From Haloprofundus halophilus (GTDB lineage: Archaea > Halobacteriota > Halobacteria > Halobacteriales > Haloferacaceae), in contig NZ_QQRR01000001.1 of the NCBI RefSeq assembly GCF_003439925.1, positions 1,240,001-1,304,000 on the forward strand: a stretch of DNA of 64,000 nucleotides. Reading direction: 5' to 3'. The notes beneath the pieces are model-generated. The model was not told the origin of the DNA. It was given only the letters and a program-made list of their open reading frames with translations, and made no database searches. The translations under genes were made by a program, and so were the position numbers. The number at the start of each line of letters is the position of its first letter. Position 1 is the first letter of the stretch. Positions 12,960 through 15,338 of the stretch are shown one piece after another.

Positions 12960-13045
12960 TCAAATCGGGGAGAGCAGTCCTTCACATTCAGCACCGGTTC
13001 GCTCCGCTCTCGGCGCTGAAGTTCAGTCCGCTCTCCCCGATTTGA
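12960..13045. repeat. Imperfect inverted repeat containing tRNA-Tyr 3' end
   Basis: The left arm tcaaatcggggagagc (12960-12975) is the perfect 16-base reverse complement of 13030-13045, the T-arm and acceptor end of tRNA-Tyr. Inside these, attcagcaccg and cggcgctgaa extend the pairing imperfectly, leaving a short loop. The whole 86-base unit could fold into one long stem directly behind the tRNA, acting as a terminator or being a remnant of an inserted element. Confidence 0.6.
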
Positions 13046-13100
13046 ACGGGGGACAAGCCGATCTACAGTCGGCTGCTCTGCCAGGCTGAGCTAAGAGCGG
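13027..13100 (-). tRNA. tRNA-Tyr (GTA anticodon)
   Basis: The coding strand starts CCGCTCT and ends AGAGCGG plus discriminator A, giving a 7-bp acceptor stem. The D-arm is GCTC/GAGC around AGCCTGGCA, the anticodon arm is GCCGA/TCGGC with loop CTGTAGA (anticodon GTA), the variable loop is TTGTC and the T-arm is CCCCG/CGGGG with loop TTCAAAT. Total is 74 bases. CCA is not encoded and there is no intron. The 5' C at position 1 pairing with G72 is the archaeal/eukaryotic tRNA-Tyr identity pair. Confidence 0.95.
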
Positions 13101-13216
13101 TGCCCTGTCGTACCGCATTCTCGGGTATAACGATTGCTGTTCGGCGCGATGTACGTGAACGAATGACGAGGATTGGGCAAGATTGAAATAGTGTCGCATA
13201 ATTCCTCTCAACGAAG

Positions 13217-13735
13217 ATGAGTAAAGTCACGTTCCGCGCGGACGACGACCTCGTCGAGCGACTGGAGGCGTTAGACGCCTCCAAGAGCGAGGTCATGCGC
13301 GAGGCGCTTCGTGCGTACCTCGACGCGTCGGAGCGTGAGGCCGGTGCGGACGCGGGGTCGGTCGCACCGGTGTCCGAGCGTATCGACGAACTCGTCCGCG
13401 AGCGCGTCGACGAACTCGTCGGTGAGCGGCTCCGACAGGCCGAGAACCGTCGACCACAGGACGTCAACGTCAACATCAGCCTCGACGGTGCGAGCGACGA
13501 CGACGACTCGGAAGAACGTAAGACAACCGTCGACGGAGCGGAGACGGCGGACGAGAAGTCGTGCAGCCAGTGCGGCGAAGAGCTGTCCGACGGACAGATG
13601 TACTGCCCGAACTGCGGTGAGAAAGCGTCTCGCCGATTGTTCTGCGACTGCGGAGACGAGGTCCGTTCGGACTGGGCGTTCTGTCCGGGGTGCGGTCGAC
13701 GGACTCCGGCGGCGGACGTTCTCGAACGGCGGTGA
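13217..13735 (+). CDS. cdrL: RHH and double zinc-ribbon transcription regulator, CdrL-like
   Basis: 172 residues. Residues 1-38 form a ribbon-helix-helix DNA-binding domain (KVTFRADDDLVERLEAL, SKSEVMREALRAYLD). Residues 53-75 are likely coiled coil (SERIDELVRERVDELVGE). The C-terminus carries two zinc ribbons: Cys116/119 with Cys130/133, and Cys143/145 with Cys156/159. The position directly upstream of cdrS-ftsZ2 identifies it as the long cell-division regulator described in Halobacterium and Haloferax. It probably binds the GTCTTAC sites in the following gap. A TATA-like ttgaaatag lies about 30 bases before the ATG. Confidence 0.85.
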   Translation: MSKVTFRADDDLVERLEALDASKSEVMREALRAYLDASEREAGADAGSVAPVSERIDELVRERVDELVGERLRQAENRRPQDVNVNISLDGASDDDDSEERKTTVDGAETADEKSCSQCGEELSDGQMYCPNCGEKASRRLFCDCGDEVRSDWAFCPGCGRRTPAADVLERR

Positions 13736-13774: not shown

Positions 13775-13930
13775 GTCTTACATTCGCCGTTACATTTATA
13801 TCCCATCGGTCTGTGCTTACGTTCGCGTAAGACGGTCGTCTTACGCTCCGGAATCGGTGGGGCAAAGTCGCCCTCCTCGTGCGATTTCGGCGCGTGATGA
13901 CACTGTCGGGCATGTGCCCGACCGTCTTAC
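13775..13930. promoter_or_regulatory. cdrS-ftsZ2 promoter with repeated GTCTTAC operator half-sites
   Basis: A TATA element tttatat at 13795-13801 predicts transcription start near 13825. Immediately there is a perfect 20-base palindrome, cgtaagacg-gt-cgtcttacg (13826-13845). A third arm cttacg at 13816-13821 forms an overlapping hairpin with the first. Further GTCTTAC copies lie at 13775-13781, upstream of the TATA box, and 13924-13930, just before cdrS. The spacing is that expected for cooperative binding of an RHH protein such as CdrL or CdrS. Confidence 0.7.
13905..13922. promoter_or_regulatory. Perfect 8-bp-arm inverted repeat in cdrS leader
   Basis: gtcgggca-tg-tgcccgac is a perfect inverted repeat located 24 bases before the cdrS ATG. 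It could be a second operator, or an RNA hairpin in the roughly 120-base leader predicted from the upstream TATA box. Confidence 0.55.
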
Positions 13931-13945
13931 CGGGGGAATGCAAAT

Positions 13946-14134
13946 ATGGAGCGTGTGACACTACGAATTCCGAAGCAGCAGATCGAGGAAGTCGAACAGA
14001 TGGTGGAAACGGGAGAGTTCCCGAACCGCAGCGAAGCCATCCGTTCGGCCGTCCGCGAGATGCTCAATGAGCAGGCCGAAGAACGCGACGCAAAACGTCC
14101 CGAGCGCACCAAGCGCAGCTGGGCGAAGGTGTAA
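13946..14134 (+). CDS. cdrS: CdrS, short ribbon-helix-helix cell division regulator
   Basis: 62-residue RHH protein: beta strand [19 protein letters not shown], then helix-turn [16 protein letters not shown] and a basic C-terminal tail ([13 protein letters not shown]). It matches the CdrS protein required for regulation of cell division in Haloferax and Halobacterium. The stop is 4 bases before the ftsZ2 ATG, so the two are co-transcribed and probably co-translated. Copies of a palindromic site in its own leader suggest autoregulation or control by CdrL. Confidence 0.92.
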
Positions 14135-14138
14135 TCGA

Positions 14139-15338
14139 ATGCAAGATATCGTTCAAGACGCACTCGAAAACGCCGAAGCCGAGCAGCGCGACATGGAGGC
14201 GCAGAGCGACGACGACGAGTTCGGCGAACCCCGTATCGTCATCGTCGGCTGCGGTGGTGCTGGGAACAACACCATCAACCGCCTCTACAACATCGGCGTC
14301 GAGGGCGCCGACACCGTCGCTATCAACACAGACAAACAGCACCTGAAGATGATCGAGGCCGACACGAAGATTCTCGTTGGCAAGTCGCTGACCTCCGGCC
14401 TCGGTGCCGGCGGCGACCCCTCGATGGGCGAACGGGCGACCGAGATGGCGCAGGGAACCATCAAAGAGGTTCTCGGCAAAGCCGACCTCGTGTTCGTCAC
14501 CGCCGGGATGGGCGGCGGCACCGGCACCGGTGCCGCTCCCGTCGTCGCGAAGATCGCCAAAGAACAGGGCGCCATCGTCGTCGGCATGGTCTCGACGCCG
14601 TTCAACGTCGAGCGTGCCCGGACGGTGAAAGCCGAAGAAGGGCTGGAGAAACTCCGCAACGAGGCGGACTCCATCATCGTCCTCGACAACAACCGCCTGC
14701 TCGACTACGTCCCGAACCTCCCGATCGGCAAGGCGTTCTCGGTGATGGACCAGATCATCGCCGAGACCGTCAAGGGGATTTCGGAGACCATCACTCAGCC
14801 GTCGCTCATCAACCTCGACTACGCCGACATGTCCACCATCATGAACCAGGGTGGCGTCGCCGTGATGCTGGTCGGGGAGACGCAGGACAAGAACAAGACC
14901 GAAGAAGTGGTTCGCGACGCGATGAACCACCCGCTTCTCGACGTGGACTACCGCGGGGCGTCCGGCGGGCTCGTCCACATCACCGGCGGCCCCGACCTCA
15001 CGCTCAAGGAGGCCGAGGGCATCGCCGACAACATCACCGAACGCCTCGAAGCGAGCGCCAACGTCATCTGGGGCGCGCGCATCCAGGAGGAGTACAAAGG
15101 GAAAGTCCGCGTCATGGCCATCATGACCGGCGTCCAGAGCGCGCAGGTGCTCGGCCCGACGACCCAGAAGCAGGCCGACCGCTCGCGCGCCAGTCTCGAC
15201 GGGAGTTCGGGCGGTTCGGAGTTCGAGACGAGTCAGAACCGACAGCGTCGGACGAGCACGAATCCGAACGGTTCGTGGCAGTCCGACGGCGGACAGGACG
15301 AGGTCGAACGCAACAACGGCCTCGACGTCATCCGCTAA
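14139..15338 (+). CDS. ftsZ2: Cell division protein FtsZ2
   Basis: 399 residues from ATG 14139, just after cdrS; a longer frame from 14067 reads back into cdrS and is rejected. The N-terminus [10 protein letters not shown] with the acidic linker [10 protein letters not shown] is characteristic of haloarchaeal FtsZ2 rather than FtsZ1. The GTPase fold starts [17 protein letters not shown], the tubulin signature GGGTGTG is at residues 125-131, and the catalytic T7 region is present. The C-terminal tail (residues 345-399) is Ser/Arg/Asn-rich and ends NNGLDVIR. In Haloferax FtsZ2 drives ring constriction, with FtsZ1 as scaffold. Confidence 0.95.

Follow-up and report, generated by a model that had tools for sequence, protein, structure and literature searches.

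A conserved GTCTTAC array at the haloarchaeal cdrS–ftsZ2 promoter is a probable operator for RHH regulators

In the stretch of Haloprofundus halophilus DNA analysed here (64,000 nucleotides, termed the window; all positions refer to it), the division tubulin gene ftsZ2 follows two genes for ribbon-helix-helix (RHH) proteins, cdrL and cdrS. CdrL has Pfam matches to PF01402 (26.8 bits; cut-off 20.5), PF24252 and PF12773, and CdrS scores 34.6 bits against PF01402 (cut-off 20.5), so both RHH proteins encoded at the locus lie above the PF01402 cut-off. FtsZ2 of the window is 98% identical to that of H. marisrubri, the nearest named relative. On the strand opposite to cdrL, a tRNA-Tyr gene (gta; 13026–13100, − strand) lies directly upstream of it. 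From cdrL to ftsZ2, the window contains the following features:

13217–13735, + strand: cdrL, encoding an N-terminal RHH_1 domain, a CdrL_M middle region and a C-terminal double zinc ribbon
13518–13524, − strand (GTAAGAC on the + strand): half-site inside cdrL, about 318 bp before the palindrome
13775–13781, + strand: GTCTTAC, the half-site on the upstream side of the TATA box, at about −50 from the predicted start
13795–13800, + strand: TATA box with the sequence TTTATA, starting 32 bp ahead of the palindrome core
13816–13831, + strand: third arm, CTTACG-TTCG-CGTAAG
13825–13846, strand-neutral: main inverted repeat, located where transcription is predicted to start; sequence GCGTAAGACG-GT-CGTCTTACGC
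13847–13945, + strand: predicted transcribed leader
13894–13901, + strand: GTGATGAC, degenerate counterpart of a leader GTAAGAC found in relatives
13905–13922, + strand: hairpin GTCGGGC-ATGT-GCCCGAC, between the two leader half-sites
13924–13930, + strand: half-site GTCTTAC at the end of the leader, 16 to 22 bases upstream of the ATG of cdrS
13946–14134, + strand: cdrS, encoding a 62-amino-acid RHH protein with ribbon residues R3-T5-R7
14139–15338, + strand: ftsZ2

The word GTCTTAC occurs five times in the 64-kb window, and all five copies lie inside 413 bp of cdrL–cdrS. Two of them form the arms of the conserved core GTAAGAC-N4-GTCTTAC (13827–13844; GTAAGAC at 13827–13833 and GTCTTAC at 13838–13844, + strand). 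A preliminary description of this DNA had reported a perfect 20-base palindrome at the predicted start; the 20 paired bases are there, but they form two 10-base arms split by a non-palindromic GT centre, giving an inverted repeat of 22 bases. From the position of the TATA box, transcription is predicted to start at the palindrome's 5′ edge, which gives a predicted leader of about 120 bases. The half-sites that had been noted upstream of the TATA box and at the end of the leader are both present, and the fifth copy, inside cdrL, had been overlooked. The overlapping hairpin made by a third arm also exists, but its upstream CTTAC arm recurs in only 5/148 relatives, and we therefore regard it as incidental. 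A scan of the whole 3.47-Mb genome found the exact palindrome once; the closest other matches have three mismatches.

We collected the sequence upstream of cdrS at about 170 loci of Halobacteria, which gave 152 distinct regions. GTAAGAC-N4/N5-GTCTTAC is present in 148 of these 152 regions, with the paired subsites one helical turn apart, that is, 11 bp (N4, 118 regions) or 12 bp (N5, 30 regions); the other four keep one arm and have a degenerate, GTCATAC-like partner. All 152 distinct regions thus carry the array, and the loss of the palindrome from close relatives, which would have counted against the preliminary proposal, was not seen. The spacing to the TATA box is also kept: wherever the hexamer TTTATW was found (119 regions), it begins 32 bp (84 regions) or 33 bp (35 regions) before the palindrome. 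Among the 148 relatives with both arms, 130 have a half-site, in either orientation, that precedes the TATA box and lies mostly 62–65 or 73–74 bp from the palindrome, the leader-end GTCTTAC near the cdrS start codon is exact in 145, and the leader GTAAGAC is exact in 109. In a position profile of the relatives, both 7-mers are invariant and the spacer (GGTY) and the flanking C and A are strongly conserved; conservation does not extend to the third arm or to the longer arms seen in the window. Across whole genomes, the N4 palindrome was found in 309/391 Halobacteria and in exactly one copy in 308 of these 309, whereas a reversed-pattern control matched in one genome. Given the unique palindrome, the 413-bp clustering and the single copy per genome relative to this control, we rejected a chance origin of the array.

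The half-site inside cdrL falls on the tripeptide RKT, which is written CGT-AAG-ACA or CGT-AAG-ACG (CGT-AAG-ACR) in 83/87 sequences. Its arginine codon is CGT in 87/87, compared with 15% of the other arginine codons in cdrL (binomial figure about 1e-95, which is overstated because the species are related, although many genera are involved). As judged from these sequences, the intragenic word is kept at the nucleic-acid level, under synonymous-codon constraint, and is an unusual example of a regulatory word retained within a coding sequence.

Chromatin immunoprecipitation data exist for both proteins. In Halobacterium salinarum, CdrL ChIP yielded a single reproducible genome site, upstream of cdrS–ftsZ2 (Darnell et al. 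2020, PMC7439475), in agreement with the one N4 palindrome per genome in 308/309 genomes. In Haloferax volcanii, CdrS ChIP yielded 18 sites, including the upstream regions of ftsZ1, dacZ and psmB; the cdrS promoter is absent from these 18 sites (Liao et al. 2021, PMC8406309). From alignments of the Haloferax target upstream regions, rather than from the published logo, we deduced the CdrS word to be GTCNGAC: it occurs as GTCNGAC-N4-GTCNGAC upstream of ftsZ1 in 14/14 sequences, and as GTCNGAC upstream of dacZ in 15/15 and of psmB in 14/15. Six Haloferax genomes contain 3–7 GTCNGAC palindromes each, with no match to a control pattern. GTCTTAC was not found upstream of Haloferax ftsZ1, dacZ or psmB, and we rejected it as the CdrS word for these genes. 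The window has no GTCNGAC in the cdrL–cdrS interval (promoter and leader), and 91/148 relatives have none within 230 bp.

The promoter word thus differs from the deduced CdrS word by one base, which points to CdrL as its reader. The ribbons of the two proteins, with polar residues at alternating N-terminal positions, differ at position 3: R3-T5-R7 is found in all CdrS sequences (171/171 in Halobacteria), and CdrL has K3 in 165/168, T5 in 165/168 and R7 in 166/168. Taken together, the universal conservation, the fixed TATA spacing, the single palindrome per genome, the 11-bp pitch and the CdrL ChIP site lend good support to an RHH operator, and the array very probably docks small RHH regulators (CdrL, perhaps CdrS) that set the amount of the division tubulin. 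The preliminary description had named CdrL and CdrS alike as obvious binders; an operator for the RHH proteins encoded nearby fits the data well, but the two are not equally likely, because the CdrS targets carry GTCNGAC and the CdrS ChIP omits the cdrS promoter. We therefore consider it likely that GTCTTAC is a DNA operator for RHH dimers, with CdrL as its chief haloarchaeal reader, setting transcription of cdrS–ftsZ2.

In the mechanism that we propose, each 7-bp word would be the subsite of one RHH dimer. The palindrome, with word starts 11–12 bp apart, would hold two adjacent dimers on the transcription start and so hinder RNA polymerase, and the half-site before the TATA box would occupy a position used by archaeal activators; these positions are our guide to the sign of regulation. 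The cdrL-internal and leader-end half-sites may join through looping or cooperative contacts. Reported effects of CdrS establish no strong sign of regulation: cdrS loss lowers ftsZ2 RNA 1.3- to 2.2-fold, and CdrS overexpression hardly alters FtsZ2 (about 0.7-fold).

GTCNGAC also immediately precedes the TATA box of cdrL in 85/143 haloarchaeal regions (the 120 bp before cdrL; for example, L137 and L147), with 94 sites compared with 1.8 expected and pairs that favour 11-bp spacing. It was not found upstream of cdrL in the window (13097–13216) and is lacking in Haloprofundus. The presence of the CdrS word at many cdrL promoters suggests a circuit in which CdrS would act on cdrL and CdrL on cdrS, linked to the CdrS sites at ftsZ1, dacZ and psmB.

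The array is also kept where cdrL was not found. A whole-genome profile search detected no cdrL in five genomes (G001, G007, G025, G311 and Salinarchaeum laminariae), which represent three lineages (two genomes in genus g5, two in g24, and Salinarchaeum), and all five retain an intact palindrome and leader site. We therefore rejected CdrL as the sole reader; another reader is possible in these lineages, CdrS being the obvious candidate. Outside Halobacteria but within the same phylum, we analysed 20 genomes in which cdrS precedes ftsZ2. Full-length CdrL was not found in these 20 genomes, which gave only weak zinc-ribbon matches, and their 180-bp regions before cdrS contain 42 copies of GTCNGAC compared with 0.36 expected, 41 of 46 spacings being multiples of 11 bp. 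These regions resemble a cooperative RHH array, written in the word that marks Haloferax CdrS targets. The simplest history would be an ancestral CdrS autoregulatory array at cdrS, the word of which changed in Halobacteria.

These observations bear on the strongest alternative, in which GTCTTAC is read mainly by CdrS, as plain autoregulation inherited from the common ancestor, with CdrL in an accessory role as partner or competitor. Persistence of the array where cdrL is undetected, the use of the CdrS word in the outgroup arrays, a CdrS ribbon that is invariant in both groups (20/20 in the outgroups) and the fall in ftsZ2 RNA upon cdrS loss would all suit it. We nonetheless think it rather unlikely: the cdrS promoter is not a CdrS ChIP site, CdrS targets bear GTCNGAC and not GTCTTAC, and the promoter and leader of the window have no GTCNGAC. 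With CdrL as chief reader, the combined data can be accommodated in a broader scheme, which we advance tentatively: the two RHH paralogs may split a code differing by one base, CdrS reading GTCNGAC at division genes and the cdrL promoter and CdrL reading GTCTTAC at cdrS–ftsZ2 and at the half-site in its own coding sequence. This interlocked division circuit would be conserved across Halobacteria and would have evolved from an 11-bp-pitch CdrS autoregulatory array that is still seen in archaea without cdrL.

The words could also be conserved as RNA, in which case a 5′ GUAAGAC/GUCUUAC hairpin and a second at the leader end would control stability, processing or translation of cdrS–ftsZ2. Post-transcriptional control of ftsZ2 has been proposed (PMC8303175), and the whole predicted leader of the window (13825–13945) folds better than its shuffles (z −3.9), as do leader segments of relatives, whereas a control region does not. 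Alignments of leaders at the genus level fold, and their consensus mostly beats that of column-shuffled alignments, but most double changes fall inside the range seen after shuffling; for the upper leader, aligning the whole class yielded no consensus fold. The leader pair always has inverted (hairpin) order with variable spacing, and its covariation is uninformative because one arm is invariant, leaving no compensatory changes. The only Rfam match was a chance-level frameshift-site hit (E 4) outside the leader. Since the leader can fold as RNA, its two sites are ambiguous between DNA and RNA roles. However, the upstream half-site precedes the promoter, and so lies outside the transcript, and it is found in both orientations, as a site on DNA would be; the outgroup sites hold helical multiples of 11 bp; and the CdrL ChIP signal is on DNA. 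We therefore keep DNA as the main reading and consider conservation as RNA improbable. As further observations on the leaders, the RNA of 13825–13945 has two mutually exclusive folds, one made of local hairpins and one in which the word at the 5′ end pairs with that at the end of the leader, and Natrialbaceae cdrS leaders (for example, L043 and L053) have a conserved GCGTCTGACAGGGGCGC stretch between the leader half-sites, out of 11-bp phase and probably a hairpin.

That another conserved haloarchaeal DNA-binding protein, neither CdrL nor CdrS, reads GTCTTAC would explain why the array persists without detectable cdrL and is absent from the CdrS ChIP sites, but this seems very improbable for a palindrome that occurs once per genome beside two RHH genes, coincides with CdrL ChIP at the same promoter and is related to the word marking CdrS targets.

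Operators of Arc, MetJ, CopG and NikR bind two or more RHH dimers at subsites about one helical turn apart, through an N-terminal β-ribbon with K/R-x-T contacts. The array and its neighbouring proteins share the helical-turn spacing and the K/R-x-T ribbon; they differ in being archaeal, in serving a tubulin operon, in carrying one half-site within the coding region for the upstream paralog and in the one-base distance between the words of neighbouring paralogs. The Haloferax CdrS motif is similar in its symmetric 7-mers 11 bp apart, placed about 50 bp ahead of the ftsZ1 start, and in its RHH reader, but that regulon uses GTCNGAC (as deduced here) at many sites per genome and excludes the cdrS promoter (PMC8406309), whereas GTCTTAC marks one locus per genome. 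The H. salinarum CdrL ChIP peak covers the same region upstream of cdrS–ftsZ2; the text of that paper (PMC7439475) contains no motif or palindrome, and the present analysis adds the half-sites, the spacing to the TATA box, the site within cdrL and the phylogenetic depth. We found no earlier report of a cdrS–ftsZ2 GTCTTAC operator in the literature searched, in line with the preliminary suggestion that its architecture may not have been described.

The array bears on how archaea control the amount of division tubulin, as it provides a candidate operator, at base-pair level, for the most conserved haloarchaeal division operon. The CdrL–GTCTTAC contact that we infer and the CdrS word together assign each word to a predicted reader, and the outgroup arrays carry the element beyond Halobacteria, so that the published CdrL and CdrS ChIP data can be re-read and the circuit tested with few base changes. 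In the genome of the window, a CdrS-type palindrome, GTCAGACGACCGTCCGAC, precedes the ftsZ1 coding sequence by about 50 bp, as in Haloferax (C1:935772-935789; L274:1501-1518), and another lies upstream of a gene resembling replication protein A (L276:1501-1518). A CdrS-type word with one mismatch precedes a PRC-barrel-like gene (L279:1501-1518), and a PRC-domain gene is among the published CdrS targets.
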